A stretch of DNA of 64,000 nt from Tepidanaerobacter sp. EBM-38 (GTDB lineage: Bacteria; Bacillota; Thermosediminibacteria; Thermosediminibacterales; Tepidanaerobacteraceae), in NCBI GenBank assembly GCA_001896545.1, contig MPOT01000096.1, positions 1 to 64,000 on the forward strand. Direction: 5' to 3'. Below the pieces are notes generated by a model, which saw nothing but the letters and a program-made list of their open reading frames with translations, was not told where the DNA came from and made no database searches. This document shows, in pieces, positions 26,861 to 45,724 of this stretch (positions are counted from its first letter, which is position 1; each line of letters opens with the position of its first letter). The position numbers and the translations under genes are program-made.

Positions 26861-28114
26861 TTAATCAATCTGTGTTTCCGCGTAAGGTATTTTTTCACTA
26901 CCTGTTACCAAGAATACTGAATCTGTGCCAAATTGTGAAACATAGCGCTTTACAATCACATCGCAGTATTTCGAGTCAAGCTCCATCATAAAACAAACCC
27001 GCCCGGTCTGCTGTGCCGCAATCATTGTCGTACCAGAACCACCGAACAGGTCAAGAGTTAAATCTCCAATATGGGAACTATTGAGCATTGCCTTTGCTAC
27101 AAGCGATACCGGCTTCATGGTAGGGTGTTCCTCCGATACTTTAGGACGGGGTATCTCCCAAACATCTGACTGTTTACGGTCTTTAAGCGGGCAAAGGCGT
27201 GTTCCTTCAAGCCAACCATACCAGATCGGCTCGTACTGGGTATGATAGTCCTTTCTTGATAGTACCAAGCTGTCTTTTTTCCATATAATTGTGCTCGACC
27301 AGTGATACCCTGCCTCCCGCATGACGTTCATCAAACTGCCCCATTCCTGAGCACTCATTACCACATAGGTCATGCATCCGGCTTCAGAAACCTCTTTCAT
27401 GCATTTAAAAGCGCGCAATAAAAAAGCGCCGAATTCTTCGGTGCTCATATTGTCATTTAGAATTTGTCTTGGCTTCCAGCTTGGATGCCTGGTATCTGAA
27501 CCGTAATCAACATTCCAGGGTGGGTCGGTGAAAACAAATCTCGCCTTTTGTCCGTTCATCAGCTTTTGCACATCTGAAAGCATGGTGCTATCACCGCACA
27601 TCAGACGGTGGCTGCCAAGTACCCATATGTCTCCCTTTTTGGTAACCGGAGTTTTAATCTCTGCAATTGCCTTTTCTGTATCGAAATTATCCTCTTTGAC
27701 ATTAGCGGTTGTTTTATCACGGAACAACTCATCAATTTCCGAAGCATCAAACCCGGTAAGAGAAACGTCAAAACCATCTTCATTTAAATCCATAAGCAGA
27801 TCGGTCAAAAGCGGAATATCAAACTCGCCACTGATTTTATTCAGTGCAACATTGAGCGCCTTTTCCCGCTGTTCATCCAAATCAACTACAACACAGTCGA
27901 TCTCCTTATACCCCAAAGCTGTAAGTACTTTATAACGCTGATGTCCGCCGACAATATTCCCGGTGCGTTTATTCCATATGACCGGCTCTACATATCCAAA
28001 CTCTTCAATGGATCGGCGGAGTTTCTCGTATTCAGGATCGCCCGGTTTTAAGTCCTTCCGCGGGTTATATTTCGAAGGTTTTAATTTTTCTGCTGGTATT
28101 TTCAGTATATCCAT
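26861..28114 (-). CDS. ParB-domain DNA methyltransferase (DPPW type)
   Basis: 417 aa fusion. ParB/sulfiredoxin-like domain (about 1-100) with SKYNPRKDL, IVGGHQR and a conserved LNVALNKI helix. C-terminal beta-class methyltransferase with catalytic motif TDPPW at 196-200 and SAM motif LDLFGGSGTT. DPPW favours N6-adenine methylation. Six bases downstream of a paralogue with a different catalytic motif. Likely protects phage DNA from host restriction. Confidence 0.88.
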   Translation of the reverse strand: MDILKIPAEKLKPSKYNPRKDLKPGDPEYEKLRRSIEEFGYVEPVIWNKRTGNIVGGHQRYKVLTALGYKEIDCVVVDLDEQREKALNVALNKISGEFDIPLLTDLLMDLNEDGFDVSLTGFDASEIDELFRDKTTANVKEDNFDTEKAIAEIKTPVTKKGDIWVLGSHRLMCGDSTMLSDVQKLMNGQKARFVFTDPPWNVDYGSDTRHPSWKPRQILNDNMSTEEFGAFLLRAFKCMKEVSEAGCMTYVVMSAQEWGSLMNVMREAGYHWSSTIIWKKDSLVLSRKDYHTQYEPIWYGWLEGTRLCPLKDRKQSDVWEIPRPKVSEEHPTMKPVSLVAKAMLNSSHIGDLTLDLFGGSGTTMIAAQQTGRVCFMMELDSKYCDVIVKRYVSQFGTDSVFLVTGSEKIPYAETQID

Positions 28115-28119
28115 AAATC

Positions 28120-29418
28120 TTAACCCTCCAGTTTGACGGCTTTTTCGCCGGTGAATTCCTCCCAGCGCTTAACAGCTAAATCACAGTAAACAGGGGATAA
28201 CTCCATTGCGTAGCATTTACGCTCGGTCTGTTCAGCCGCAATTATAGTAGTTCCGCTACCAGAGAACGGCTCAAGCACAATACCGCCTTTGTCGCTGTGC
28301 ATTTTGATGCACCGCCATGGAAGCTCCACAGGGAACATTGCAGGATGCTCCTTGTTTGCCCGTACAGTGGTCATCTCCCATATCCCAGCATAACCCCATT
28401 TCTTGCGTTCTTCCTTTGTAAGCCGTTTCACAAATTTATAACTGTGTCCCGCAAAGGCTGAAAGCCATACATATTCCTGATCGTTGTATTCCTCGGCCTC
28501 TCCTTTATTGCTGAAGGCTGAAATATACTCATACTGCTGCACCGGTTTGTTGGAAACAAGGTGATAGGGTCCGACACCGAAGTTTTGCCCCTGCTTCTTC
28601 CAGATGCGGATCCATATAGGACGGTAGCCGTTGTCCAAAAACATATTCACACTGTAAACACTGGTGGGTTCAATAAACTGAGAGCCGGTAGCATAGAGAT
28701 CACCTAAGTTCCAGCAGACAATATCTGCATACTTGCACAGGTTTCTAATCACTGGGCGTACTGTCTCGAACCATGGTTCAATCCCAGCCTTTTCATATTC
28801 TTTGCCTACCCCATATGGAGGGGAAGTAACCGCCATTTGAGCATGCGCTCCGTCCATGAGCTTTGCGAAGTCAGCCTCGCTCGTGGAGTCGCCGCACATC
28901 AAACGATGATTCCCGAGAAGCCAGATATCGCCCCGCTTCGTTACCGGCTCGCGCTGCACAATTTCCTCATGTGCTTTATCTATGTCAAAGCTGTCCTGCA
29001 CCGCTTCCTTGGCATACCATCGGTTGAGCAGTTCGTCTATTTCAGAAGCGTCAAATCCTGTAAGCGAAACATCAAAGGCACCTGCGTCCAGTTCAGCCAT
29101 CAGTTCTGCCAGTTTATTCTCGTCCCACTCTCCCTGAATCTTGTTGAGGGCAAGATTGAGCGCTTTTTCCCTCTGCGGGTCAAGATCCACTACAACGCAG
29201 TCTATCTCAGTCTGTCCCAAGTCCAGCAAAACCTTTAAGCGTTGATGCCCGCCTACCACATTGCCGGTCTTTTGGTTCCAGATAACAGGCTCCACATAGC
29301 CAAATTCCTCTATCGACCGTTTTAGCTTTTCATATTCCTTATCGCCAGGTTTTAAATCCTTGCGCGGATTATATTTTGCAGGATTAAGTTTATCAACTGA
29401 GATTTTTTGTATGTTCAT
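28120..29418 (-). CDS. ParB-domain DNA methyltransferase (SPPY type)
   Basis: 432 aa, same ParB-plus-methyltransferase layout as its neighbour. Catalytic motif is TSPPYGVG and SAM motif LEPFSGSGTT. SPPY is typical of N4-cytosine enzymes, so the tandem pair probably modifies different bases or sequences. Start ATG 29418 overlaps the upstream small gene. Confidence 0.88.
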   Translation of the reverse strand: MNIQKISVDKLNPAKYNPRKDLKPGDKEYEKLKRSIEEFGYVEPVIWNQKTGNVVGGHQRLKVLLDLGQTEIDCVVVDLDPQREKALNLALNKIQGEWDENKLAELMAELDAGAFDVSLTGFDASEIDELLNRWYAKEAVQDSFDIDKAHEEIVQREPVTKRGDIWLLGNHRLMCGDSTSEADFAKLMDGAHAQMAVTSPPYGVGKEYEKAGIEPWFETVRPVIRNLCKYADIVCWNLGDLYATGSQFIEPTSVYSVNMFLDNGYRPIWIRIWKKQGQNFGVGPYHLVSNKPVQQYEYISAFSNKGEAEEYNDQEYVWLSAFAGHSYKFVKRLTKEERKKWGYAGIWEMTTVRANKEHPAMFPVELPWRCIKMHSDKGGIVLEPFSGSGTTIIAAEQTERKCYAMELSPVYCDLAVKRWEEFTGEKAVKLEG

Positions 29419-30390: not shown

Positions 30391-31077
30391 TTACTTGTCA
30401 GTCAGACGAACAATTTGACAATTGACCGTCATTCTGTCCAATAAAGTCTGGCAAAGGTGCTTGTCTTCAACTGCATCTATCCATGCTGACAGTTCACGAT
30501 TGGTTATAAAAATAATGCTTCTGGCTTCATTAAGAAAGGTAACTGCCCGGTAGAAAACCTGCAGTTCTGCCCTGGTTGGTTCCACATAAAAGACATCATC
30601 AATAATAATTAAGTCACATTCCTGCATATAAGAAAAGATCGCTTCTGCTTTTGGATTTGTGGCTTTCTTTTCTGCCACTGCGATAAAATTATCAAAAGGC
30701 GCATAATAGGTTTTATATCCATTGCTGATTGCAGTTTCTCCAAGTTGCGCTGCAAGACCGGTCTTACCCGTCCCGCATTTTCCCAGCAGGATTAAGTTTT
30801 GCTCTTTCTTAAGCCATGTCAGGTTGGATAACTGTTTAATCTGCCATTTTAAGCCCTTGTTTGAGTTCGATGCGTCAAATGCTTTGTTTGGAAGCTTACT
30901 TGCCTTCCTCAGCTTGGTGTGTTTTTGTCTGGCCCTAATCTCCAATTCTTTTTCTAACACCATCTTAAGATAGTCAAGGTTTGATAGTTTCTCATCGTTC
31001 AAATCAATGTATCCCCTTGCGATATTCCAAAGGTTGAGCTTTTGGGCCAATTCACGGATTTCTGTTATATCAGCCAT
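30391..31077 (-). CDS. istB: IS21-family helper ATPase IstB
   Basis: 228 aa AAA+ protein. Walker A GKCGTGKT, Walker B LIIIDDVF, sensor region SIIFITNRELSAW. Assists IstA by regulating target use. Overlaps istA by 8 nt. Length is slightly short of the usual 245-260 aa but motifs are intact. Confidence 0.9.
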   Translation of the reverse strand: MADITEIRELAQKLNLWNIARGYIDLNDEKLSNLDYLKMVLEKELEIRARQKHTKLRKASKLPNKAFDASNSNKGLKWQIKQLSNLTWLKKEQNLILLGKCGTGKTGLAAQLGETAISNGYKTYYAPFDNFIAVAEKKATNPKAEAIFSYMQECDLIIIDDVFYVEPTRAELQVFYRAVTFLNEARSIIFITNRELSAWIDAVEDKHLCQTLLDRMTVNCQIVRLTDK

Positions 31078-32542
31078 TGATTTCCCTCCTTATTTCTTTA
31101 CTCCTCGCCAAATGGTTAAAATACTGCTGATTCGGCAAAAACTTCTTAGCTATATGCTCTCCGTACTGATACATGAGATAAGCCAAAAGTTCATAGGCGC
31201 TGCAACGTTCATTATCAATGCAGTATTCTATTCCATCAAGCAATTGTCCAATTGTATAAAACTTTGTCATCCGGTATAATCGAATGCAATGTGTATTAAA
31301 ATATTTCGGCTGTTGCTGCTCCATCCGGCGAATGAATTCCTGAGCTATTTCGTATTCTGCAAAATATTGTTTTATGATGGTTAAAGAAACCCTGTCTCTG
31401 CTGTAATTTTCTTCTGGTTTGAACAACTGCCCGGTATCTTCTGTGACTGGATATTTAGCCAATAAATCATTTGTTTCAGCATCATAGAACAAAAGCATTT
31501 CACCATCATCTTCAATGCGAATGCGTATATGAGCATCCATCATATCTGTATTAATCAGATAACGGTTGCCTTTATAATTTACCACTCCATCCTTATCAAA
31601 GGAGGCAACAGTGCTTGATACTTCGGAATAAGGTTTGACATGGAGCAGGTATTTTTGCTCTTCCATGAACATTTCACGCGGCACTTTTCTGGTCACAGTA
31701 TGTATTCGCCCGTTGCCTTCCCTATCCAACCATGCAAGGGCAGCACTGTTAAGGCAATCAATTCCGGTGTATATCCTGCCCTCAAGAAAACTTTGCTTTA
31801 TGTATCCAATCACCTCTTCAACCTTGCCTTTACTTTGAGGATCTCTTGGTCTACATAGCGAAACACTGTAACCTATACGCTTAACATATTCTTCAAAGGC
31901 GGGTACGAATATGATATTCCCCAGATTTTCGCTGACTACATAGACACGGTCAAGGTCATAAAGAATAGTCTGTGTTCTTCCTCCAAAATATTGGAATGCA
32001 TAGTTATGAGCTTTAATGGCTGTTTTGGTTGTAAAGGGATCCGGTGAAAAATAAACAAATTTCATTCTGCTATAACTCAGAACCATGGAAAAGAAATATA
32101 TTCGTACAATTCGCCCGTACATATCCTTAAGTTTGTATTGACCAAAATCCGCCTGCGCTTCATATCCCGGTGGAGAAATTTCACGGGGTGAGGTTTTACG
32201 TTTACTGGCATGCGGATAACCGTGCTGTTCCCTTAAGGCTTTCATATAGCGGTAGAATGTAGCTCGTTTAACTTGTAGATCAGGGAAGGCCTCCACCAAT
32301 TTGAGATAGATGTTTGTATCCCTCATTTGTGGACAAATTTTCAAATGTTCCAGTATGTACTGACGATAGTTATCCATGTGGTACCTTTCCTTTTCAGCTT
32401 CCCTTACATAATCTTCTTCGCTCATATTCCAGTATTTGCTGACAGAAGAATAGGTTATCCCCAGTGCTTTTGCGGTTTTTGTCTGAGCAAGTCCAAGTGC
32501 TTTGTACTCCTGGATTTTTCGGTATTGTTCAATGCCGATCAT
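31070..32542 (-). CDS. istA: IS21-family transposase IstA
   Basis: 490 aa. N-terminal helix-turn-helix (KTAKALGITYSSVSKYW), DDE core with QADFG, LYDLDRV and RDPQSKGKVEEVIGYIK (Asp, Asp, Glu). C-terminal beta barrel. Appears intact, so the element may be active. Confidence 0.92.
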   Translation of the reverse strand: MIGIEQYRKIQEYKALGLAQTKTAKALGITYSSVSKYWNMSEEDYVREAEKERYHMDNYRQYILEHLKICPQMRDTNIYLKLVEAFPDLQVKRATFYRYMKALREQHGYPHASKRKTSPREISPPGYEAQADFGQYKLKDMYGRIVRIYFFSMVLSYSRMKFVYFSPDPFTTKTAIKAHNYAFQYFGGRTQTILYDLDRVYVVSENLGNIIFVPAFEEYVKRIGYSVSLCRPRDPQSKGKVEEVIGYIKQSFLEGRIYTGIDCLNSAALAWLDREGNGRIHTVTRKVPREMFMEEQKYLLHVKPYSEVSSTVASFDKDGVVNYKGNRYLINTDMMDAHIRIRIEDDGEMLLFYDAETNDLLAKYPVTEDTGQLFKPEENYSRDRVSLTIIKQYFAEYEIAQEFIRRMEQQQPKYFNTHCIRLYRMTKFYTIGQLLDGIEYCIDNERCSAYELLAYLMYQYGEHIAKKFLPNQQYFNHLARSKEIRREING

Positions 32543-32995: not shown

Positions 32996-33700
32996 TTAAT
33001 CCACTGTTAACACAATTTTGCCACCAAAGTTACTTAAGGTAAATAAGTCTGAGTCATGTAGCCATTCGAGTGAAACAGTGTATTCAAACGGAAAAGCCTG
33101 GGGTACCGAAGACAGCTCTGCAATTTCATAGTAGGCTCTTTCCCTTAAGTGAAGGATGGCCAACAGCAACACCTGTATGGTTTTTACATCGGTAACCGGG
33201 TACTTTTTTATTCGATATACCCCAACCTTCTCATTTTCGATGGCCCCAATCAGCTTTAAGGTTTGCAATATCTTATCGCTGGAATGAAACAGTGTAGTCC
33301 GTTCTCCCCACATTTCAAACAGCTTTTCTTTAAGCCAGGATGTCGTAAATGTATCCTGGATGTTAGTGAGCTTGCCTATTAAAGCACAGACATCACAGAA
33401 TACAGGGTAAGCAACCAGCATCATGCTCCAATGCAATGCCAGTTTGTTCGACTTCTCATCCTTATAAGCTTCTAAAGCTTGCTGTTTTAAAGTTGAAAGC
33501 TCCTCAGGAGTCCTCACCCATATATTCATGAGGATTTCCCTCGTCTTTCTGAGGTTAGTCGGGCTCTTTATTTCAAAGAGCAAGTATTCGTTTAACTCAT
33601 CTTTAATTTGAGTTTCGTCCTTACCCTCTAGTACGAGTTCTACAGTTTTATTGAGCCATTCCAATTTAATGGAACGGGACAGTCCAACAATCTTTGCCAT
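32996..33700 (-). CDS. brxA: BREX protein BrxA (DUF1819 family)
   Basis: 234 aa, last gene of the BREX operon. All-helical NusB-like protein; N-terminal WLNKTVELVLEGKDETQIKD and TNLRKTREILMNIWVR are typical of BrxA/DUF1819. BrxA binds DNA and is present in type 1 and type 3 BREX. It starts at the base after the pglZ stop. Confidence 0.85.
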   Translation of the reverse strand: MAKIVGLSRSIKLEWLNKTVELVLEGKDETQIKDELNEYLLFEIKSPTNLRKTREILMNIWVRTPEELSTLKQQALEAYKDEKSNKLALHWSMMLVAYPVFCDVCALIGKLTNIQDTFTTSWLKEKLFEMWGERTTLFHSSDKILQTLKLIGAIENEKVGVYRIKKYPVTDVKTIQVLLLAILHLRERAYYEIAELSSVPQAFPFEYTVSLEWLHDSDLFTLSNFGGKIVLTVD

Positions 33701-35146
33701 CTAAATTACCGCCTTTACTTTAATGAATGGGACAATTACCTCGTCAATGGAGATGCCCCCGTGTGTCATTACTTCTTCATTCTTATTATCAAAAGAAACG
33801 CCTGACTCGCAGACGTAGTATTTATAGTCTTTATCCAAGTAATATCCCGGATAAGTCACAACTTTATCTCCAAAGGAGTCTTTATCTTCTGCAAAATCTT
33901 TCAGTACAAACATCCTCTTGGATTTAGTTTCAACCTCAACGCCAACATCACGAATAGCTCCTGCTCCGATGCATGGGGTATTACCGTGGTCGGATGTTAT
34001 ATAAATATTAAAACCCTGTGCATACAAATCTTTAATCAACGTTTGTAACTTACCACTTTTTGCCCATAAGGAAACATCATTATACATCCCTACACGACCT
34101 TGCTTTTGACCGTGAACTAAATCATCTATATCATTGATGATAATAGCCATAAACTTGGTAAAATGGCTGATGGGCGGATTGTAGCCCTTGGCATATAAGC
34201 TTTGCTGTTTGGTATACCCCTTGTTCTTGGCAGCCTCCAAAAAACCTTTTTCTTCCTGGCTTAAAGAGAAAGGGTCTTCCAACTCACGGGGATACTTCCC
34301 ACTGAGCAGGCCTTGCCTTGAAATAGCTGTCGTCGTTGGTATTAGAGCATAAGTACATTGATACTCATAGTCAATGCCTTCCCAATATCGCGAGATAACT
34401 TCAAAATCAAACAAAGACATCCCATCCACGACAATAAGAGCAGTCTTCCCATGTGCTATGAAATCAATCACTTTCGGCAAAATCGCAGGAGCATGTTTGT
34501 TGGTCTCACCGGAAAGCTTTTGATAGCCATCAAATATAAACTTTTCAAATTCCGCGTCAACAAAACTCGTATCGATTATGATATTTGCTTTTGCAGCGTA
34601 ATAATCAATCAAGGCCTTTTTACGGGCAATCTCAATCCAGCCATTTGCAGTAATACCAGATTTATCGCCGGAAGGCAAGAGGTTTTTTATCAATATCTCA
34701 CAATAGTTTTTTATATTTCCCTTTGAAAAGACCGTATCTGAAATAAATTTTTCAGTCTTTTCCCTGGTGTCACAGGACGAATAAAGCTCCTCATAGGCAA
34801 AGCTAATCAAGTCAATGTCTTTAATATACCGGCGCACCGTATCTTCATGAAGTTTCGGAAATATGCTTCTGAGAGAAATTTCAACCTCAAAAAACTGTTT
34901 CCTTATATCGTATGGCACATATATGTCAGAATAAACAATAACCGCATATTTATTATCAGAATTCCTTATTTCTTGCTCATACCTTAGCCGGAATGTTTCA
35001 ATATCCTCATACTGGATGACCTCAAAATTCTGAGAAATAAGCAGCCTGGTATAATCAAAAGCAGCACAAAATCCGCTGGTATCAAATATCAGCAACCGCT
35101 TTTCATATTGAATTGAAAAAAGCTCTGCTATCCGTTTCTCTATCAT
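33701..35146 (-). CDS. pglZ: BREX phosphatase-fold protein PglZ
   Basis: 481 aa. Alkaline-phosphatase-superfamily PglZ domain: metal-site ALIVVDGMSLFDF near residue 250, IYITSDHGNTPCIG, and C-terminal EVMTHGGISIDEVIVPF. PglZ is the hallmark of all BREX types. This version is compact as expected for type 3. Lies 4 nt from brxHII and abuts brxA. Confidence 0.92.
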   Translation of the reverse strand: MIEKRIAELFSIQYEKRLLIFDTSGFCAAFDYTRLLISQNFEVIQYEDIETFRLRYEQEIRNSDNKYAVIVYSDIYVPYDIRKQFFEVEISLRSIFPKLHEDTVRRYIKDIDLISFAYEELYSSCDTREKTEKFISDTVFSKGNIKNYCEILIKNLLPSGDKSGITANGWIEIARKKALIDYYAAKANIIIDTSFVDAEFEKFIFDGYQKLSGETNKHAPAILPKVIDFIAHGKTALIVVDGMSLFDFEVISRYWEGIDYEYQCTYALIPTTTAISRQGLLSGKYPRELEDPFSLSQEEKGFLEAAKNKGYTKQQSLYAKGYNPPISHFTKFMAIIINDIDDLVHGQKQGRVGMYNDVSLWAKSGKLQTLIKDLYAQGFNIYITSDHGNTPCIGAGAIRDVGVEVETKSKRMFVLKDFAEDKDSFGDKVVTYPGYYLDKDYKYYVCESGVSFDNKNEEVMTHGGISIDEVIVPFIKVKAVI

Positions 35147-35150
35147 AATT

Positions 35151-37820
35151 TCACTCCATATGTACTATCAATACTGGCTTAAAGTCAGGACAGAATTTCT
35201 TGCCCGCCTGGTAATTTGCTTCTATCTCTGCCTTTTCCCGGCTTAAAGCCATAAGTTTGTGCTTCCTGATATTTTCGATCCCTATCCGCTGCGCAGCCTC
35301 GATGCGCAGGTTCAAAGCATACAAATACTTTCTGTATGTTTCTTCATTTCTTTTTTCCAGTTCTGCTTTCAGCGTTAAGAAAGTGTCGTAGGCAAATTCC
35401 TGTGACGCTGTACGGAGCTTATTCTGAGTTTCTATATCGATCTTTTCCCCTTCGCAAACAGTAATAACCCTGTCTTTGTCAAGAATAGCCTCCCATATTT
35501 TCTTACCCGCCATAGGACGCAGGATAAAATCCTGGTTAATGAAAATTGGGATAATCTTCTGCCCCTGGCTGTCAGGAGTAAGTGATATCCGCCACAGCAT
35601 AAAGTAGCCCTTTTCATTCGGAAAATCTTTTATTGAAACATTTAAAAGCTGACCTCCCAAGTCTTGCTCGATTTCCTTGTTCAGGTGGCCAACAATCACA
35701 GGGTCATTGATGCTGAAATTCTCGATAGGCAAGTAGGGATTGCCCTTATAGTTTTCATAGTATGTGACCATCTGCCGCAATGCAGCTTCAAAGTCAAAAG
35801 CAGATCCTGTCCCAATCATTGAGGTAAGGTCTTTTTCTTCCTTTATGAGGTCTTTTATACGCATGGTATTTTGAACCTGCTTTTTCAAATCCTCCTCAAC
35901 CGGACGAATGTTTAACTCAATATTTTTAGGATTGCGGATTGATTTCATATAAGCATCCGTAAAGTTAAGCTCAGCGGTTTCACTGTCAAGCACATCAGAA
36001 TACTTGTCGATGCCAATCTCTTTAAGTATAACGGAAAGCTTTTCTTCCAACACAGCTTTTACACGGTTTTCAACAGTATCAGCCAGAATAAAATTATAAA
36101 CTATCACATCTCTTTGCTGCCCGATACGGTCAACACGCCCGATACGCTGCTCTATCTTCATCGGATTCCAGGGCAGGTCATAGTTAATAATGCAGTTGGA
36201 AAACTGCAGGTTTAGGCCCTCACCACCGGCATCGGTCGAAATAAGGATGTCCGTTTCCGTTTTAAACTCCTGCAGCACGGCATTCCGTTCCTCAATACTC
36301 ATGCTGCCGTTGAGAATGGATGTTGAATACCTCCTGTCTTTCAACAGCTTTACAAGGTAGCTTTGTGTCGCCACAAATTCCGTAAAAATGATAACCTTTC
36401 TTTGCCGGTCCTCAGCAAATAAGTCATCGATAATTTCAAGCAACGGCTCAACTTTGACATCAAGATATTGGAACTCTGCCTGCTTGGCAACTGCAATGAT
36501 ATCGTTAAGCTGGGCAATTTCTTCTTTGATGTCCAGAGAAATGGCAGCAATGGCATCCTCCATGTTTTCTTCCAATTCCATCTCTGCAAATTCTTCTTCG
36601 GACATGGATTGATACTTGAATGCTTGCTCTTCCAGGACTTTAACACGCCGTTCCATACTTTCCCGGACGGCGCTTGTGCTGCTGGTGACCAGACGCTGCA
36701 TCATAATGAGCAGGAATACGAACCACATGTTTTTGCCGCGGTTGCGCATTGCCTTGTTATAATTTTTGGAAACGTAATCCGACACCATTTCATACAGCCT
36801 GCGCTGCATGGAATGCCGTTCGTCCCAGTGCAATTCAATAGCCCTGGTAGTTCGATTCTTAAAAAGCTTATTGCCGTTATTGTCTATGGCTTCACGCTTT
36901 TCAGTCCTTATAACATAAGGAGCTACCTGCTCTTTAACAATGGCATTGATATTGGGGAAGGCCTTTTCATCAACCAGGCGTATAAGCCGCAAAAACGGCT
37001 CCGTTTTGCCATTATGGGGTGTAGCAGTCAGCAACAGCAGGTAAGGGCTGGCTGCAGCCAGGAGGTTGCCAAGCTTGTATCTGGCTACTTCCCCTGAACT
37101 CCCGGCAACCCTATGGGCCTCGTCAATCACGACCAAATCCCAGCCGCTGTTGATGATGGAATAAATCCGTTCCTCATTGTATTGGGCGATCTTTTCTTCC
37201 GTCCAGCCAACCCGTCTTTCCAAGGGCTTGATAGAATCCATGGGTGAGATAACCTGATCAAACTGCCCATAAACGTCCTCATTTCCAGTTATCTTACGAA
37301 TGGTGTCATAATCCTCCGGCAGGATAACATGGAACTTCTCGTTAAACTTGTCCTGCATTTCCAAACTCCATTGAGTTACCAGACCGGTAGGACAGACAAT
37401 TAGTATCCGCTTGATAAGCCCCCTGGTCTTCAGCTCTTTGATAATAAGTCCTGCTTCAATAGTTTTTCCGAGACCCACTTCATCCGCCAATATGTATCTC
37501 ACATTATTGTTTGATAAAGCCCTGTTAAGAACATGCAGCTGATGCGGCAAAGGAATGATGCCGCTCGATAGCTTTGACAGGATGCCTTCGGAGGTTTCGT
37601 TCTTGATTTTTGAAAGCATGGCAACATACCGAAGATAGCTCTCATTAAAATTTTCTTCGGGTACTTCGGCGCAAATGTCATCAGCGGATAACTTATAAAC
37701 TGTCCCGGTAGAATTATTAAACACCTTGTAAGACACAAAGCCCCATACTTCGCTGACATCCAATATCTGCACACGCTCATTTTTGGTTTTATCAAAAACG
37801 TAATCTCCTATAAAAGGCAC
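35151..37820 (-). CDS. brxHII: BREX type 3 SNF2-like helicase BrxHII
   Basis: 889 aa superfamily 2 helicase. Walker A ADEVGLGKTIEAG near residue 115, DEAH box VIDEAHR, TATPHNG, and C-terminal motifs STDAGGEGLNLQ and RIGRVDRIGQQ. GTG start at 37820 with AGGAGG inside the end of the 57-aa gene, only 3 nt after its stop, so translation is coupled to the microprotein genes. A helicase of this type is characteristic of type 3 BREX. Confidence 0.9.
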   Translation of the reverse strand: MPFIGDYVFDKTKNERVQILDVSEVWGFVSYKVFNNSTGTVYKLSADDICAEVPEENFNESYLRYVAMLSKIKNETSEGILSKLSSGIIPLPHQLHVLNRALSNNNVRYILADEVGLGKTIEAGLIIKELKTRGLIKRILIVCPTGLVTQWSLEMQDKFNEKFHVILPEDYDTIRKITGNEDVYGQFDQVISPMDSIKPLERRVGWTEEKIAQYNEERIYSIINSGWDLVVIDEAHRVAGSSGEVARYKLGNLLAAASPYLLLLTATPHNGKTEPFLRLIRLVDEKAFPNINAIVKEQVAPYVIRTEKREAIDNNGNKLFKNRTTRAIELHWDERHSMQRRLYEMVSDYVSKNYNKAMRNRGKNMWFVFLLIMMQRLVTSSTSAVRESMERRVKVLEEQAFKYQSMSEEEFAEMELEENMEDAIAAISLDIKEEIAQLNDIIAVAKQAEFQYLDVKVEPLLEIIDDLFAEDRQRKVIIFTEFVATQSYLVKLLKDRRYSTSILNGSMSIEERNAVLQEFKTETDILISTDAGGEGLNLQFSNCIINYDLPWNPMKIEQRIGRVDRIGQQRDVIVYNFILADTVENRVKAVLEEKLSVILKEIGIDKYSDVLDSETAELNFTDAYMKSIRNPKNIELNIRPVEEDLKKQVQNTMRIKDLIKEEKDLTSMIGTGSAFDFEAALRQMVTYYENYKGNPYLPIENFSINDPVIVGHLNKEIEQDLGGQLLNVSIKDFPNEKGYFMLWRISLTPDSQGQKIIPIFINQDFILRPMAGKKIWEAILDKDRVITVCEGEKIDIETQNKLRTASQEFAYDTFLTLKAELEKRNEETYRKYLYALNLRIEAAQRIGIENIRKHKLMALSREKAEIEANYQAGKKFCPDFKPVLIVHME

Positions 37821-37823
37821 GGT

Positions 37824-37997
37824 TCATTTTCCTCCTGAGTTATTATTATTCTTCTTCTGATCCTCTGCAAATTCAAGCTTTGTAGGGATGGATGTAGTTT
37901 GAACTAATTTCATAGGATTAACAATATTCTGAGGAATAGTATTCTGATTGGATTTGCTATCTTCAGGAATAATATCTTGTTTATGGTTACTTTCCAT
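37824..37997 (-). CDS. microprotein 2 embedded in BREX operon
   Basis: 57-aa ORF with AGGAGGG ahead of ATG 37997; overlaps the end of microprotein 1 by 11 nt and stops 3 nt before brxHII. Hydrophilic, no membrane segment, Asn/Lys-rich tail (NNNNSGGK). Residues 27-40 read NPMKLVQTTSIPTK. Microprotein 1 has NPMKQVQTTQIPTK. The 12 identical residues are encoded with six synonymous differences and no replacements, which supports real coding and selection on the peptide. Not recognised. Possible ligand, antitoxin or assembly partner of the adjacent membrane protein. Confidence 0.75.
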   Translation of the reverse strand: MESNHKQDIIPEDSKSNQNTIPQNIVNPMKLVQTTSIPTKLEFAEDQKKNNNNSGGK

Positions 37998-38139
37998 GCT
38001 TTTTCCCTCCTAATATTGGCCGTTTATACCCATCATCACGCTGTTCCTTCGTTGGGATTTGCGTAGTTTGAACTTGCTTCATGGGGTTTGAAGTATCCTT
38101 ACCGGAATTATTATTTGAAGCACTTCTTGATAAACTCAT
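37987..38139 (-). CDS. microprotein 1 embedded in BREX operon
   Basis: 50-aa ORF, ATG 38139 with GAGGTG six bases upstream, 9 nt after the membrane-protein gene. Hydrophilic; N-terminal Ser/Asn-rich stretch, then NPMKQVQTTQIPTK at 18-31, then a basic tail. Paralogue of the following gene. Too short for standard gene finding and likely missed in annotations. Function unknown. Confidence 0.75.
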   Translation of the reverse strand: MSLSRSASNNNSGKDTSNPMKQVQTTQIPTKEQRDDGYKRPILGGKKHGK

Positions 38140-38148
38140 TTTTTCACC

Positions 38149-38721
38149 TCAAATCATTTTACAAATAGCTACAATATACCAAAATGCTATTCCTGCAATT
38201 GAAGCAAAAAAGCTTGCCATTGACAGACGTATCAGAGTAACCCGCTCATCATTCCCATCTGCTTTGCTTTTCTGAACTCTTCCAACTAAATCAACCCACT
38301 GTTTAAGTTGCTGAGATTCCAGCAAAGTTTGCTCCCAATGCTCTGAAACATATTTCTCAATTTCAGCTATATCCATAAATGCATTATATTTTCGCCTTCT
38401 TTGTGCCAAAGATGCAAAAACAAGACTGAGAAGAAGAAAGAAAACGATTGATGAAAATGCAATAAAGAAAAAATTAAGTGACAAACTGCCTCTGTGTTCA
38501 ATCAAAATAGGAGCAGCCATGAATAATGCCGCTGTCATAAAAGAAAAAGCTGTCTGCATTTGGCTTGATTGTTGGATAAGGGAGTCCTCACGTCGAAGCT
38601 CGCTTTCGTATTTCATTTTGCTAATCTCTTTAACATGACGATATAGTGTAACAGCTTGCTGCTCTAGTTCTTCTTTGCTCATAACTTTTTCAACTTCTTT
38701 AGCCTTCTGCACCTCAGACAT
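38149..38721 (-). CDS. three-helix membrane protein embedded in BREX operon
   Basis: 190 aa. Helical charged N-terminus (1-55), predicted membrane segments at about 56-74 and 82-105 forming a hairpin, a coiled-coil-like stretch (112-150), and a third segment at about 164-188 near the C-terminus. The layout recalls SLATT-type and other small membrane effectors of defence systems, but I see no diagnostic motif. It starts 8 nt after pglX (AGGTG upstream), so it is co-transcribed with BREX. Not a standard type 3 BREX component. Function inferred only: possible membrane-damaging effector or sensor. Confidence 0.8.
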   Translation of the reverse strand: MSEVQKAKEVEKVMSKEELEQQAVTLYRHVKEISKMKYESELRREDSLIQQSSQMQTAFSFMTAALFMAAPILIEHRGSLSLNFFFIAFSSIVFFLLLSLVFASLAQRRRKYNAFMDIAEIEKYVSEHWEQTLLESQQLKQWVDLVGRVQKSKADGNDERVTLIRLSMASFFASIAGIAFWYIVAICKMI

Positions 38722-38729
38722 ACAGTCAC

Positions 38730-41270
38730 CTAAATCCTCCCCAAACTTAAATCATAGTACATAAGCAGCTTATCATCCTCTTGGATAACACTTTCCGGCA
38801 AGCGCTCTGCTGTTTCGACAATCAGCTTATAATTCTTATCGACCCAGAGCTTAGCAAAGCCCGCCCTGATTGCTTCGGTACGGAATAGTTTAAGCTTGCC
38901 TTTTGTGGCTAAATAGCCCTCGAATTCTTTAAGCAATTTCTTTTCGCGGAGCTTGGCCACATCGGCAGCTTTTGTAATGTCTGGAATATACCATCTGCCC
39001 CTATCGTCCTGCAGGAAATTTTCTTCAAGTAATACTGCCAACTCAGGTCTTGCTTCAAACTTGTCCCATGCTTTTATTTCCTGCATGAATTTTGGCTGCA
39101 GTTCGGCATATGTCTGCGGTGTTTCAAGCTGCTGGTAAAGCCAGGCAATAGCAGACTTTTCGTTGGTGACAAAAAGCTCAAACTGAACCGGCTCCACATC
39201 GTTTATGATACGGGCGGTGTCATATTCGTTGACCTGATCGGCAAGGAAGTACATTCCGTCACGCTTCAGGAACCTTTCGTCCAAACCTTTATAAAAGTCT
39301 GTTGCGTCTAATGGAACAGCTATTCCGTTCATAATATGATACGCCACCATGCGGTCATAGAGCAGAAATGCCTGGCGTTCTGCTATTAGTTCAATCTTTC
39401 CGTTCTTGACAACAACAACAGGAAGCTTTTCAAGGTGCTGTCGCACAAAACTCCATGCTGTTTCTTCACTTCCAGCATGAGATACGAACTCACGCTTAAA
39501 CCTATCTTTGGGTTTATATGCTGAAATTACAAGGTCTTGCTTAATTGTAACTTGTGAAGTTACTTGCTTAAAGCTACTGTGTTTTTTATCTAAAGTTCTT
39601 ACATCAGCAATAATAAATCCCGCTCTTTGTATACTTTCTTGGATGGAATTCCATACAGCATTTTTTGAATTGTGAAACACAACTGTTATCCATCTATTAG
39701 GTTTTAACACTCTAAAATATTCTTTGAAACATTGTGTCATTAAATCTTGGTATTCCATTAAACCCTTAGATTGAATTTTGTTCACAATAGCTTCTTGTTT
39801 ATTGTTAGTTTTGACATTTAACCATGATTCCCATATAAAATTCAGTTCGGAATACATTAAATTTTCACCAAAAGGTGGATCAGTAAAAATATAATCAACA
39901 CTATTATTCAAAATTTGTGACATATCCGTTGCAGATTGGGTAGATATAAGAACATTTGAAGACTTAAACTGGCGTCGTTCCTGCAATCTAACTGCTTCTT
40001 CAATAAAACTCAGCATATTTAATTCTTTAATTAATGAAGGAATATATAGCGTACCAGACATCGGACCACCGCCAGCTCCCCAGCAACCATTCATATAGGT
40101 AAGTCTATATTGTTTTGTCAAATGACTTGCAACTTTGGTTAGAGCAAACCCAATTTCATCCAACATGTCAATTTGGTGATAAAAATAAGCTAAAGTTATC
40201 AAATTTCTTTTAGTATAAAATAAGTGAATCTTACTTAATCCATGAGACTTTTTTGGCTGTTCTGTATTATAACCTGCAGGCAATTCGTCTGTAGGAATCC
40301 AATAATCAACAGACATATTATTTATCTTATTGATCAGGTCAAAATCATATTGATCAGGTTCTTTTTCATATCTTTTTCCTGCATAAGTATAATTTATTCT
40401 TACTGGTACTTGCTTAGATAAGTTATAAGTACATTGAGTTATTGTGTCAAAATATAATTCCTGAGCACGTTCACAATCATTTTTTCTTACTTTCATTCCA
40501 CAAAAATGACATTTAAACTTATCTTTTACCTTTCCTTTCTCAATATCTACAGCAGTATTCCAAAAAACAAGTTCTTCTCCACAATTTGGACAGATGAACA
40601 CATCTGACCATATTACGTAATTTATTTCGCCTTTAGATTGTTCAGAGGTTAGCTCATTAATATTGTTATCTTCATATGAATGAATAGTTTGATACATCCA
40701 TGCACACTCTTTACGGCATCGATCAAGTATCGTTTCCGCCCTTTTCCAATATTCAGAGATATTTTTTATAGGCAAATTATATTGCATAGAAATATATGTT
40801 GCAGCTGGAGATAAATCACTTATTATAGCAGCACGAGCTCCCCAAGTGATATGTTTTTTCTCTGATTCAACTGCTAATTGAAATTCTGCATCAGGGCATC
40901 CACACATTTGCGCTGCAATTCCTACCATACCTGTTCCACAAAATCCATCAAGTACAATATCTCCAGGATTAGTATAGTGCAGGATATATCTCATTATTGC
41001 TTTATGAGGAACCTTTGTATGATATGGGTGTAGTTTATATATCGCATCATACTTACCTTCACTCACATCCGCAGCAAAAGGTTCCCTATGATAATCGTCA
41101 GTCGCTTCGTCATAAGGTTTGCCATGTTCTTTTATAAAATCCTCAATAAACGGGTTAGGGCATGCTGTATAGTAAGGAGGATTGGATAAAGCAATAATAT
41201 CCTCGTCCTTGCCTATAGGAAAGCCCTCAATATGCCTTACTTTGTCAATATCTTCTTTAGTCAGTTTCAT
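38730..41270 (-). CDS. pglX: BREX type 3 adenine DNA methyltransferase PglXI
   Basis: 846 aa. SAM motif DGFCGTGMVGIAA near residue 110, zinc ribbon CPNCGEEL...CHFCG (about 230-260), catalytic FTDPPFGENLMYSELN near 480, and a long C-terminal specificity region. N-terminal LSNPPYYTACPNPF is typical of this family. Modifies host DNA so BREX spares it. ATG with AAGGAGAG, 12 nt after brxC. Confidence 0.9.
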   Translation of the reverse strand: MKLTKEDIDKVRHIEGFPIGKDEDIIALSNPPYYTACPNPFIEDFIKEHGKPYDEATDDYHREPFAADVSEGKYDAIYKLHPYHTKVPHKAIMRYILHYTNPGDIVLDGFCGTGMVGIAAQMCGCPDAEFQLAVESEKKHITWGARAAIISDLSPAATYISMQYNLPIKNISEYWKRAETILDRCRKECAWMYQTIHSYEDNNINELTSEQSKGEINYVIWSDVFICPNCGEELVFWNTAVDIEKGKVKDKFKCHFCGMKVRKNDCERAQELYFDTITQCTYNLSKQVPVRINYTYAGKRYEKEPDQYDFDLINKINNMSVDYWIPTDELPAGYNTEQPKKSHGLSKIHLFYTKRNLITLAYFYHQIDMLDEIGFALTKVASHLTKQYRLTYMNGCWGAGGGPMSGTLYIPSLIKELNMLSFIEEAVRLQERRQFKSSNVLISTQSATDMSQILNNSVDYIFTDPPFGENLMYSELNFIWESWLNVKTNNKQEAIVNKIQSKGLMEYQDLMTQCFKEYFRVLKPNRWITVVFHNSKNAVWNSIQESIQRAGFIIADVRTLDKKHSSFKQVTSQVTIKQDLVISAYKPKDRFKREFVSHAGSEETAWSFVRQHLEKLPVVVVKNGKIELIAERQAFLLYDRMVAYHIMNGIAVPLDATDFYKGLDERFLKRDGMYFLADQVNEYDTARIINDVEPVQFELFVTNEKSAIAWLYQQLETPQTYAELQPKFMQEIKAWDKFEARPELAVLLEENFLQDDRGRWYIPDITKAADVAKLREKKLLKEFEGYLATKGKLKLFRTEAIRAGFAKLWVDKNYKLIVETAERLPESVIQEDDKLLMYYDLSLGRI

Positions 41271-41282
41271 ACCGGTCTCTCC

Positions 41283-44200
41283 TTATCTTTTTACAATAAT
41301 ACGCAGTTTATCTTTATCCTTGCCCTTGGTATAGCTATCCAACAGATCTTTTAGTTTGTGCTGGAATGTATCAATATCGCACGGCCCGAGCGCACCGAGC
41401 TTGTCAATGAGTTCGTCGGCCGCAATGGCGACAGGCTCAAAACCCTTCAATAAATCCTCAATCGCATTGATAAAGAAATGGTCAATTTTTTCAGGCAATA
41501 CTTTGGTTTTAATAAATGCATCAATAGCAGCCCGCTGTTCCGGACTTAGATACTGTTTCTGTTCTTCAAGGGTTGGGTCCGTAACCGTATTAAACAGGGT
41601 ATTTGTCCATTCGGCAAGCAGACTGTCAATCCGGTCTTCAATCTCGTCAAGCCTGCCTTTTACCGGAATATCGGCTTCACCCATGAGAAAATTGCATTTC
41701 GTGCAGAAATGGTTCGTTTTCAGCATATCAGGAGTCAGCTCATAGCAGACTTTTAACCCGGCCAGATCCTTTTCAATGCTGTCCAGTTTGGATGTCGAAA
41801 AAACATTGCTTATTGCTTTCAAGCGCTTCAGATTAGCCAGTTTTGCCGAGCCGACCAGTTCGCCCTTGCGCTGGCCGTCGGAAACCCCAAGACGTTTTTT
41901 CTGATGCTCTGCAAAGTAAATGTCAATATACTGGTTCTTGACTTTAGCAAGCAGATTGTTTACATCCGCTGCGGAAGCCTCGCCGCTCATATCCTGCGGT
42001 ATGTCGTCCCGAATCTTGCGGAAGCTTTCCTTGGCGGCCTCAATCTCTGCTCTTAAGGCAGCACCAAGCTCCATACGTTCCAAATTCATCATGTAATTGA
42101 CATTGGCAAGGCAGTCGTTCCTGAACTTTTCGTATTCCAGAACAATTTTTGAGGCCGTGATATCTTTGCCAAGCTGCTCAATCTGTTCCATGGTATAATT
42201 AAAGTTATTGAGCTTGGCCACGGTGTTGAACCTGCTCTGGAAGTTGCCAAATATATCCAGCACTCTCTTGGCGGAAGCCTTGTAATCCGAAGCAAGATGA
42301 TCGGCAATCAGCGGTTCGCCCCAAAGTTCAAATTCCCCGTTTAGCTTGCTGTTGGCCCTAACCGCAATATTAGCCATCTCCTGGGCTTTGGCCAGCAACC
42401 GTTCAAGCCCGTCCTCCCGCTGGGCAGGATTGTTGATAAGACCCACAGGGAGCTCCAGCAGCTCATACAGCTTGACCAGCTCTGCCAGCTGCATGTCCTT
42501 CGGCTTGGAAATGTACTTAAACTCATAGATATCAAGGGCTGATATCTTGGGCAACGTTTCCAAATCGGAAGCAGTCAGGGTAGTGCCGTTCCTTAAAGCA
42601 ATGACGGCATGGCCTGTATGAACCAATGCAAGCAAGACAATCGGCAAAAGAGCATAACTGACTCCGAACCGCTTGTCTATATAATATTCATCTTTGTTTT
42701 GAACTTCAGTGTAAATATCACTGAAATTGATAACTGCCTTGGCAGGAATCTTTTCCAGCTCTTTGATAAAATGTTGTGCATACTTGGAGTTTTGCACGGT
42801 AATCTTTTCTCCGTCAAGTAAATCAAAACTTTCCAGCAAGGCGTTTGCCTGTTGGTTCTTTCGACCAGCAAACCTGTCAATGCCCGCCCGGATAATATCT
42901 GCCCGGTTGCGGTGCGTAATCTGAATTTTGAATTTCGGCATCTCAGGATACTTTTTCGTAAAGTATTCATCCAAACAGATGGAAGCAACCAGATCAATGG
43001 TTTCTTTGAATGGGTTTGTGCTCTTATATTGTCCCTTCATTACTTCCAGCAGTTGCTTCTTTTCGCCCTTATAGATTACTTCAAAGCAAGTATTCTTATT
43101 TTCGCTAAGGTATTTCGTCAGCTTTTTCTTGAAAACTTCAGCCTTGTTTTGATAGGCAGGCTTATTTTTTTCTTCGGCCAAATCTTTCAGTATTTGAGCG
43201 GCACCATATAACTTTAGCGTGTTCTTGAAGTCTTCGTTGGGCTTAAACAGGAAAAAGACCTCATCGTCCTTCTTGTCATCCGTATAGCTCTCATTGCCAT
43301 AGGGAGGAATAAAGTATATGTAATAGTCCTCCGGCGGCTGAGCAGTCGGACGCGATTCAGGTGTGCCAAAGAATAGGTAGCCTGAACGGAAAATACCGTG
43401 AGACACCCAGTTCAACCGATGTTCATATATTTTAAAATTATCAACGTATTCTTTCTGATCCCACTCTAAGCAATAATAAACTACATCATAAAAATAGCTA
43501 TTAAGACTGTCATCATCCATGATAGCCGCTCTTTGCGTGATTTTTTCGTCGTAGTCGATGTCTTTTTTCAAGTCCAAATAGTATTGTCCGTTATCTGCAT
43601 TATGTTCAATAAACTGCCCGCTGACAGTAGTCATTATATCCTTCAGGACCGTTTGAATGATAGATTGCAAAGTATCCGAACTTTGGTCTGGCATACCTTT
43701 TAAATACAGGCAAAGATCATCCCTGAGGTTTTCTGCGGTAAGCCCTGCACGGATACTGATGTCACCGGTGGTTAATCTATGTACGCTTAAAGCATATATT
43801 ATCTGCAAGGCCAAAGGCTTATAAAGGCGTTTTGGAAATGAACGGTTGACGATATCCTCAAGCATGCCGCTCTTTTCAACGACTTCTTTAATATTGGCGT
43901 CTGTTCTATATGAAAAATTTTCCTTTATAAAAGACCAGTAGCTGTCAAATGATACAATGCCGGGAGATTCATCAGTGATTTCATCGTCAAGTATCCGCCT
44001 GATGATCTCCGAAATGTTTTTAAGTATATGACGGTTCTCAATAATGTAAATCTTGTTAAAAACTTCAATGTATGAAGGATGAATAGGGAACAGGTCAACG
44101 TATTCCTCCATGCGCTCCGACATATTGGTATACAGACTGCAGAACTTTTGCAAGTGCTCACGGATCAGCGCCTTCTGTTCAGGAGTCTTCTTCAGTATTC

Positions 44201-44972
44201 TTTCAGATACAACATAGGCCGTATCTTCCTTACGAATGATGACTTGCTCAAACCTATCCTTTACACGGTTTAAAGTATTGGATACAAATGAAAAGCTGGG
44301 GTTATCAAAAAGTTTTTCCTGTACTCCGAAAATAGCTCTTAAACGGGAAGTTTTAATAATTTCTCCCAGCTCGCGCATGAAGCCTAGGTCGAGCTTAATC
44401 TCCTGGCTTTTACGGCCGCCAAGATAGTCGAGGAACTCATCCACCACAATCAGGTATCCTTTGTCGGGATATTTGGATGAAAACAAATCCATCATGGTCA
44501 GGAGCACATCTTTATTTGAGATAATATCCTTTTCATCAGGGAAGTCAAAGATGAGCCCACGTTCAGCAAAATCCTGCTTTACTTTTGTCAGGATGATGTT
44601 CCTGAGAGACATTTTTGATGCGCCTATTTCAATACGCAGGACTTCAAACTTCCCCGCAATGATCCTGGCAGCCTCGGCAAACTTTTTGTTTTGTACATAG
44701 TCAAGGTTTTCGGCATCGTATGCTATTGAAGAAATGACCGACATAAGGTGCGATTTACCTGTACCGTAGTTACCTACCAGCAAAACACCTTTATTGTCTA
44801 CCACATCATCTAACCGAAGCTGTGAAAGCATATTATTGGTTAGCTTGTCCGCCATATCATCGGACATGACATAGCTTTTAACCAGATTTATTGCTTCTTT
44901 CTTGTCATTAGCCGCCGTAAGCTGGATAATGCTTTCGATTGGATTGAAGTTTATCAAATCTGCGTATTTCAT
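41283..44972 (-). CDS. brxC: BREX ATPase BrxC
   Basis: About 1229 aa from ATG 44972 (GAGGGGGG upstream). Large P-loop ATPase: Walker A GNYGTGKSH at 67-75, Walker B YLIVVDEFLDYL near 165, then a long helical body. C-terminal zinc-like CTKC region (FCTKCNFL). Size and order identify BrxC; it is present in all BREX types as a signalling or assembly ATPase. Confidence 0.92.
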   Translation of the reverse strand: MKYADLINFNPIESIIQLTAANDKKEAINLVKSYVMSDDMADKLTNNMLSQLRLDDVVDNKGVLLVGNYGTGKSHLMSVISSIAYDAENLDYVQNKKFAEAARIIAGKFEVLRIEIGASKMSLRNIILTKVKQDFAERGLIFDFPDEKDIISNKDVLLTMMDLFSSKYPDKGYLIVVDEFLDYLGGRKSQEIKLDLGFMRELGEIIKTSRLRAIFGVQEKLFDNPSFSFVSNTLNRVKDRFEQVIIRKEDTAYVVSERILKKTPEQKALIREHLQKFCSLYTNMSERMEEYVDLFPIHPSYIEVFNKIYIIENRHILKNISEIIRRILDDEITDESPGIVSFDSYWSFIKENFSYRTDANIKEVVEKSGMLEDIVNRSFPKRLYKPLALQIIYALSVHRLTTGDISIRAGLTAENLRDDLCLYLKGMPDQSSDTLQSIIQTVLKDIMTTVSGQFIEHNADNGQYYLDLKKDIDYDEKITQRAAIMDDDSLNSYFYDVVYYCLEWDQKEYVDNFKIYEHRLNWVSHGIFRSGYLFFGTPESRPTAQPPEDYYIYFIPPYGNESYTDDKKDDEVFFLFKPNEDFKNTLKLYGAAQILKDLAEEKNKPAYQNKAEVFKKKLTKYLSENKNTCFEVIYKGEKKQLLEVMKGQYKSTNPFKETIDLVASICLDEYFTKKYPEMPKFKIQITHRNRADIIRAGIDRFAGRKNQQANALLESFDLLDGEKITVQNSKYAQHFIKELEKIPAKAVINFSDIYTEVQNKDEYYIDKRFGVSYALLPIVLLALVHTGHAVIALRNGTTLTASDLETLPKISALDIYEFKYISKPKDMQLAELVKLYELLELPVGLINNPAQREDGLERLLAKAQEMANIAVRANSKLNGEFELWGEPLIADHLASDYKASAKRVLDIFGNFQSRFNTVAKLNNFNYTMEQIEQLGKDITASKIVLEYEKFRNDCLANVNYMMNLERMELGAALRAEIEAAKESFRKIRDDIPQDMSGEASAADVNNLLAKVKNQYIDIYFAEHQKKRLGVSDGQRKGELVGSAKLANLKRLKAISNVFSTSKLDSIEKDLAGLKVCYELTPDMLKTNHFCTKCNFLMGEADIPVKGRLDEIEDRIDSLLAEWTNTLFNTVTDPTLEEQKQYLSPEQRAAIDAFIKTKVLPEKIDHFFINAIEDLLKGFEPVAIAADELIDKLGALGPCDIDTFQHKLKDLLDSYTKGKDKDKLRIIVKR

Positions 44973-44986
44973 CAAAATAACCCCCC

Positions 44987-45430
44987 TCAGATTACACAAG
45001 TTATATCATAGTCATGAATGTTATATGAATGAAAATCCCTATAAGCCGGTGTTGCATATACCAAGTGGTTATCGTCCAACGTGCCGCACCACTTTATAAC
45101 AATTTTTGCTCTGCGTGACAGCTCATAAAAAAATCTGATAACATCAATGCTGTACCTCGGGTCAAACAGCATTTCGTAGTCTGTCAGAAAAATCGGGCCT
45201 TGTATGGACGATACAATTCTTATCGCTTCATCGCTAACAAACTGCGGCCTGATAGCTGCATCTTTTTTTACAAGGGCTTCAGCCAATAATCCATTAAGTC
45301 TGAGCTCTTGATAACCAGCTTCGGCAATAATCTTTTTCAATCTTGGCGCAGAAGAGCAAAGTATAATCGGTGTATTTGTTTTCTCAAGCATTTTTTTACT
45401 GAATTGAGAACTCTTTATTAACGTACCCAA
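44987..45430 (-). CDS. brxF: BREX type 3 protein BrxF
   Basis: 147 aa from TTG 45430 with only a weak GTGGGG site. First structural gene of the type 3 cluster, directly before brxC, the brxF position. GPIFLTDYEMLF resembles a Walker B strand. The expected Walker A near PIILCSSAPRLKKI lacks a GxxGxGK(S/T) sequence, so nucleotide binding may be lost or atypical. Identity rests on size, order and the rest of the operon. Confidence 0.75.
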   Translation of the reverse strand: MGTLIKSSQFSKKMLEKTNTPIILCSSAPRLKKIIAEAGYQELRLNGLLAEALVKKDAAIRPQFVSDEAIRIVSSIQGPIFLTDYEMLFDPRYSIDVIRFFYELSRRAKIVIKWCGTLDDNHLVYATPAYRDFHSYNIHDYDITCVI

Positions 45431-45467: not shown

Positions 45468-45695
45468 TTACCTGCAGTCGCGCTGTTCATCCGGCCCATC
45501 AACAATTTCCATGATATCTCCGATATCACAGTTAAGCGCCTTGCAAATCTTGACCAGTACTCCGGTAGTCACATTCTCATTTTTGCTGAGCTTAACTATA
45601 GACGATGAACTTATGCCTGCTGCTTTACAAAGGTCTTTTTTCTTCATGTCTTTATCGATCAACAGTTTCCACAGCTTTTTGTAGCTTACCGGCAC
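45468..45695 (-). CDS. XRE/Cro-type regulator of the BREX operon
   Basis: 75 aa from GTG 45695, supported by GGAGG seven bases upstream; the ATG at 45710 would leave almost no leader. Single helix-turn-helix domain: MKKKDLCKAAGISSSSIVKLSKNENV. First gene of the operon, 37 nt before brxF. Probably controls the whole operon by binding at the upstream palindrome. Confidence 0.85.
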   Translation of the reverse strand: MPVSYKKLWKLLIDKDMKKKDLCKAAGISSSSIVKLSKNENVTTGVLVKICKALNCDIGDIMEIVDGPDEQRDCR

Positions 45696-45724
45696 GTATT
45701 TCACCTCCATCGTCCTATATTTAT

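Follow-up and report, generated by a model that had tools for sequence, protein, structure and literature searches.

A membrane protein and two micro-proteins in the pglXI-brxHII slot of a type 3 BREX operon: a candidate exchangeable defence cassette

What could a small membrane protein and two micro-proteins contribute to the BREX operon in whose core they are embedded? The window, that is, the whole stretch of 64,000 nucleotides analysed here, carries a type 3 BREX operon, as the earlier note had recognised; it lies on the minus strand and is complete, with all six core genes detected by PADLOC in the order brxF, brxC, pglXI, brxHII, pglZ, brxA. Three further genes are inserted between pglXI and brxHII, and the coordinates and spacings previously given for them proved exact:

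45468..45710, minus strand: HTH_26 (Cro/C1-type) protein, upstream of brxF (Pfam HTH_26, 9.8e-22; weak PADLOC matches HTH_VI and PDC-M64)
44987..45430, minus strand: brxF, type 3 BREX core (PADLOC BrxF, 6.4e-17)
41283..44999, minus strand: brxC/pglY (DUF6079), type 3 BREX core (PADLOC BrxC, E 0; Pfam DUF6079, E 0)
38730..41270, minus strand: pglXI methyltransferase, type 3 BREX core (PADLOC PglXI, E 0)
38149..38721, minus strand: three-TM membrane protein, 190 aa, proposed effector (open reading frame, hydropathy)
37987..38139, minus strand: pepA, hydrophilic micro-protein, 50 aa, core NPMKQVQTTQIPTK (GRAVY -1.51)
37824..37997, minus strand: pepB, hydrophilic micro-protein, 57 aa, core NPMKLVQTTSIPTK (GRAVY -1.25)
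35151..37820, minus strand: brxHII helicase, GTG start, type 3 BREX core (PADLOC BrxHI/BrxHII, 3.5e-300)
33701..35146, minus strand: pglZ, type 3 BREX core (PADLOC PglZ, 7e-73; Pfam PglZ)
32996..33700, minus strand: brxA, type 3 BREX core (PADLOC BrxA, 2.7e-64)

The membrane gene lies 8 nt from pglX and 9 nt from pepA, pepA and pepB overlap by 11 nt, and 3 nt separate pepB from brxHII. Shine-Dalgarno-like stretches, located by eye, precede the trio genes and brxHII; since the stretch belonging to pepB falls within pepA and the one belonging to brxHII within the 3' end of pepB, the peptides and brxHII are probably translated in a coupled manner. The HTH_26 protein upstream of brxF is a possible regulator of the operon. 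Immediately downstream of brxA are IS21-type istA/istB-like genes (rve integrase core and IstB; window 30391-32542), and two neighbouring ParB_N plus N6_N4 methyltransferase genes lie close to the operon (window 26861-29418). The same genome carries a second type 3 BREX-like operon (L057, G000:C98:81500-100500) with brxF, brxC, pglX, pglZ and brxA, for which no brxHII match was found within the 19 kb fetched.

The trio is not confined to this genome, and the possibility raised earlier, that it is found only here, is thereby refuted. A single scan of 84,980 species with exact peptide patterns, a design by which distant copies can be missed, returned one relative, in Lactimicrobium massiliense (L005), with the same order of pglX, membrane protein, two peptides and brxHII. 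The membrane protein there is 64% identical by tblastn (61% over the full alignment); its gene has a TTG start and lies 4 nt after pglX and 9 nt before a 53-aa open reading frame, which overlaps one of 41 aa, both with the peptide motif. A peptide profile gave two matches each in the window's genome and in Lactimicrobium and none in four other genomes tested, and the back-translated peptide pattern occurs in 1 of 398 genomes of the phylum, the window's own, at the two window peptides only (Lactimicrobium lies outside this set). A third, distant relative of the membrane protein emerged from a profile search of 195 Lactimicrobium-family genomes (G431, locus L093; E 2e-40). No BREX gene was recognised on its 3.6-kb contig, and the 56-codon open reading frame 12 nt after it was rejected as a peptide homologue by its motif score (P = 0.22, 5000 shuffles). 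At the beginning of this small frame, its Shine-Dalgarno and start region is repeated imperfectly (L093:1380-1440), which leaves its true start unsure. The expectations that relatives border type 3 BREX and are accompanied by the peptides hold for L. massiliense, and L093 shows neither a recognised BREX gene on its contig nor a recognisable peptide: the trio is known from two loci (n = 2), both type 3 BREX, while the membrane family also occurs elsewhere.

The genome sets searched for the membrane protein overlap. Matches came from 4 of 149 genomes (the window's own, plus three that we take as chance, at E 6e-4 to 0.007), 5 of 195 (Lactimicrobium, G431 and, again regarded as chance, three at E 0.0016-0.004), 1 of 22 and 1 of 289 (each time the window's own) and 1 of 395 (Lactimicrobium), with 0 of 20, 0 of 3 and 0 of 5 in the remaining sets. 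No relatives were found in plasmids (queries: the window and L093 proteins), phages, where a DNA search with the entire trio was also negative, or viral contigs; nor were the peptides found in viral contigs, where six pattern matches were judged by eye to be chance.

What else occupies this position in other operons? PglXI matches occur at 63 places in 47 of 398 genomes of the phylum; 40 regions were fetched, with cut, short and divergent places omitted, and together with L. massiliense and the window 42 operons were viewed. In 30 of these pglX is followed by a brxHII match, in ten pglZ comes next and no brxHII match intervenes, and two have no anchor (L053, L070). The spacing between pglX and the brxH match exceeds 250 nt in 13 of the 30. 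L069 was dropped from further counts and from the tree because its helicase match is weak (45 bits) and 9.9 kb away, and the window and L. massiliense were set aside because they had been chosen for the trio; an insert is then present in 10 of 27 operons, which are not independent, since several form near-identical pairs on the tree. Nine of the ten inserts match known or candidate defence families, bearing out the statement that BREX loci host extra defence genes:

L037: NsnB-like ATPase
L039: PDC-S19
L040: OLD/GajA-like
L042: SIR2 and HerA
L043: PDC-M34A, with a weak PD-T7-3-like partner beside it
L044: Mrr type IV
L045: RAMP-superfamily proteins, read as type III CRISPR (Pfam only)
L051: PrrC-like AAA_13 (PDC-S06)
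L061: TrlF/Ppl-type ATPase
L074: 234-aa protein without assigned family

The pglX-brxHII junction is a swap site, and in the operons sampled here nearly every other occupant is a known or candidate defence gene. The slot is empty in 17 of 29 operons. That it normally holds no other gene, as had been assumed, is correct for the 17 of 27 unselected operons without an insert, but not for the ten occupied ones, nor in view of BxaP, a published occupant of the pglXI-brxHII slot of type 3 BREX (PMC10799925). According to the accessible text of that source, BxaP resembles the trio in being a rare, non-core accessory gene in this slot, and it protects E. coli on its own, likely via abortive infection; unlike the trio, it is a single protein, with an N-terminal DUF4145 domain by HHpred and a weak HEAT-like match. 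The trio, in contrast, combines a three-TM protein with two micro-proteins and has no DUF4145 match, this domain being absent from the Pfam matches to E 1 of all three membrane relatives, so that BxaP is set apart by its description. The slot is already known, and the kind of occupant is new; of the 22 insert proteins scanned (L069 excluded), all but the membrane proteins of the two trio loci have at most one TM-like segment. What else fills the slot, together with the BxaP precedent, suggests a role of the trio in defence.

At the comparison junction, between brxC and pglX, the spacing exceeds 500 nt in 3 of 37 loci. Three alphaproteobacterial plasmids have a pglX-brxHII gap of 68-86 nt, so their slot is empty. 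Two of these three plasmid type 3 BREX operons (L100, L102) carry an RNA-binding-domain gene at the brxC-pglX junction, which is possibly a second accessory slot. At L053 (2991-4400), a NucS-like nuclease gene follows pglX and is itself followed by a repeat of about 285 bp of the pglX 3' end, a trace such as an insertion into the slot might leave.

An exchange of the slot's content against an almost constant background is seen in L061, an operon from another family of the phylum. Its BrxHII is 99%, its BrxC 97% and its PglZ 94% identical to those of the window, and the brxHII DNA matches at 93-100% per 100-nt bin, beginning 10 nt or less from the start codon; in the trio's place, however, stands a 2.8-kb gene for a 930-aa TrlF/Ppl-type protein. 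The middle of pglX (window 40900-39400) is only 62-73% identical, with unaligned stretches, whereas the ends are mostly at 80-95% and the last part at 84-93%, and it is probable from this pattern that the DNA-recognition part has been exchanged. On the BrxHII tree of 29 rows, presence and absence of an insert change at least 6 times, and slot content changes at least 12 times, where the 12 states alone set a floor of 11. The window and L061 are sisters, with L051 (AAA_13) next, and L. massiliense, which has the trio, is the sister of L067, which has nothing in the slot. Between the window and L. massiliense, the membrane protein and BrxHII are equally diverged (64% identity each by tblastn), which suits an old trio that was later replaced or lost in relatives; two separate arrivals in these lineages are the alternative.

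The genes of the trio themselves offer further clues. PepA and pepB are paralogues, as previously stated, with 43% identity overall and 12 of 14 core residues alike, and they have in common the core NPM-x-x-V-x-T-x-x-[IV]-PT. All four peptides of the two loci have GRAVY values of -1.25 to -1.73 and zero cysteines, and they are probably disordered. In the six pairwise comparisons among them, the 14-codon core differs 15, 14 and 48 times at codon positions 1, 2 and 3, respectively; the core is therefore coding and is selected at the protein level. Within a locus the cores agree at 12/14 and 11/14 residues, across loci at 7 to 10 of 14, and the two peptides of a locus have their own motif variant in common (VQTTxIPTK in the window, VHTPxVPT in L. 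massiliense). As the within-locus cores are alike despite third codon positions that differ at 7/14 and 5/14, we read the shared motif as one candidate binding motif, matched to a partner of the same locus; separate duplications or old gene conversion could also account for this likeness. Neither window peptide has a match at E 0.1 in Pfam, PADLOC, PHROGs or NCBIfam, known antitoxin families in these collections included.

The membrane protein indeed has three helices as far as hydropathy goes, with TM-like segments at 56-74, 84-102 and 169-187. Outside these lie a charged N-terminal stretch, a loop of nine residues and a charged loop of 66 residues, an arrangement that suggests that the N-terminus is inside the cell and is followed by a short hairpin on the outer side, then by a cytoplasmic domain and a final TM helix. 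It reaches the curated cut-off of no family in Pfam or NCBIfam, and PADLOC and PHROGs contain no match to it at E 0.1; a PDB sequence search gave nothing below E 0.08. Its AlphaFold model is all-helical and weak (mean pLDDT 61, from an input alignment of two sequences), Foldseek found no match to it at E <= 0.001, and the Foldseek/VIA-align rows are helical bundles as well as FAT and BAR-like helices, none of which clearly outranks the others. A fold assignment was therefore set aside, and Pfam, NCBIfam and Foldseek provide no family or fold match in support of a pore or toxin function.

Several faint resemblances were rejected. Weak matches to 8xMP (PF24838) occur in two of the three membrane relatives in Pfam, but the window protein scores 17.9 bits against a curated cut-off of 30, and a profile comparison with four 8xMP-type proteins ended out of register, at a probability of 0.8% and E 0.074. 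DUF4212 (19.6 of 30 bits, E 0.0012; Pfam), Na_symport_sm of NCBIfam (E 0.011) and the PHROGs of unassigned function matched weakly by the L. massiliense and L093 proteins (best E 0.0017) were taken as TM look-alikes. SLATT families are absent from the Pfam matches to E 1, a family scan beyond which a remote kinship may exist. One 8xMP-family membrane gene stands directly before a ThsB-like TIR gene (L095:1417-2312); this little-described family may also act in defence, an inference that is not transferable to the trio.

Where would a partner bind? Segment 130-150 of the membrane protein is 71% identical between the window and L. massiliense and 24% identical to L093, where the motif is missing, whereas the segment preceding TM1 stays at 84% and 74%; this contrast comes from three sequences, of which L093 is the more distant overall. 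It makes residues 130-150 our best candidate for a docking site, as a lead from sequence comparison.

How might these parts work together? The trio is a non-core addition, placed between pglXI and brxHII and missing from the closely related L061 operon, and its genes have a toxin-antitoxin-like anatomy, being small, adjacent and co-oriented, with the 9-nt gap, the overlap and the Shine-Dalgarno-like stretches. Toxin-antitoxin modules with a membrane toxin are small co-translated pairs in which a hydrophilic, disordered partner stands beside the membrane protein; the trio differs from them in its two tandem peptides with a shared motif and in being built into BREX, and its toxin and antitoxin roles are putative. 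We give even chances to the trio being an exchangeable accessory defence cassette, in which a membrane effector is controlled by two disordered micro-proteins with a shared docking motif. Beyond the slot and the conservation described above, what we infer concerns toxicity, peptide binding and the trigger. The membrane protein would be the effector, and in infected cells it would damage the inner membrane or shut it down. Both micro-proteins, with one linear motif and made from the same operon, would dock on its cytoplasmic face, where residues 130-150 are the candidate site, and would hold it off much as a toxin is restrained, here by two antitoxin-like peptides; it would be set free by infection or by a phage that interferes with BREX. 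The more specific scheme, of a BREX back-up in which the three-TM effector is locked by the paralogous micro-proteins via their locus-tuned motif and released when phages disable BREX, is tentative and rather doubtful as a whole.

That the peptides restrain the effector is, in our judgement, somewhat more probable than that they activate it. As activators or sensors, they would respond to phage presence or to the state of BREX by switching on the membrane effector via the common motif. Two copies with a common core but different flanks would fit two inputs, and both genes lie immediately downstream of the effector gene with overlapping frames; yet no sensor domain is seen in these hydrophilic peptides of 41-57 aa, and the window pair is without a match at E 0.1 in the four family collections, so that we regard this alternative as unlikely. 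Still less likely is an optional BREX subunit, in which the membrane protein would anchor BREX at the inner membrane, close to phage DNA as it enters, and the peptides would serve as adaptors for BrxHII or PglX. Each of the two trio loci belongs to type 3 BREX, and the equal divergence of membrane protein and BrxHII would be in line with such a tie, as would the NPMK that the peptides have in common with a BrxHII stretch (NPMKIEQ). However, the best motif score of BrxHII, 12.2, is about the shuffled mean of 12.3, and none of the window's BREX proteins outscores its own shuffles, so that mimicry of a BREX protein by the motif was rejected; moreover, the L061 operon, with its 99%-identical BrxHII and 97%-identical BrxC, does without the trio, 17 of 29 slots are vacant, and for one membrane relative the contig shows no recognised BREX gene. 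Least likely is a non-defence passenger that landed in the slot by chance, for instance a small membrane protein for bacteriocin immunity or stress, accompanied by leader-like peptides: the trio has no defence-family match and the L093 protein weakly matches a PHROG annotated "bacteriocin production or immunity" (E 0.097), but the same slot and order recur in a distant genus, nine of the ten other occupied, unselected slots hold defence-family genes, and the peptides have no cysteines and low hydrophobicity.

If the cassette with a peptide-controlled membrane effector is the correct reading, what does it add to BREX? BrxU and PARIS, which we take to be second defence layers tied to type 1 BREX, are presumably nucleases, and differ in this from a membrane protein with peptides in type 3 BREX. 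The BREX auxiliary or backup effectors treated by Rakesh and Krishnan (2026, PMC12839542) are nucleases and OLD ATPases and, like the trio, extra genes embedded among the BREX core as a second layer; no membrane effector is described in the accessible text of that paper, in which "transmembrane" has 0 occurrences and "membrane" one, in a reference title. The trio itself was not seen among the open-licence PMC papers listed. Overall, the earlier reading of the insert is partly supported.

As far as the accessible text of these sources goes, the BREX add-ons described so far are nucleases, OLD ATPases and a soluble abortive-infection protein, and the trio would widen the kinds of second layer. 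If true, it would be the first membrane effector we have come across that is integrated among BREX core genes, and would represent a membrane switch locked by peptides and opened with two keys. The L061 operon, with another cassette in the same place, is a natural control for the slot's effect on a given BREX core. Finally, the trio would exemplify a class of defence parts whose genes, at 40-57 codons, may escape annotation pipelines.
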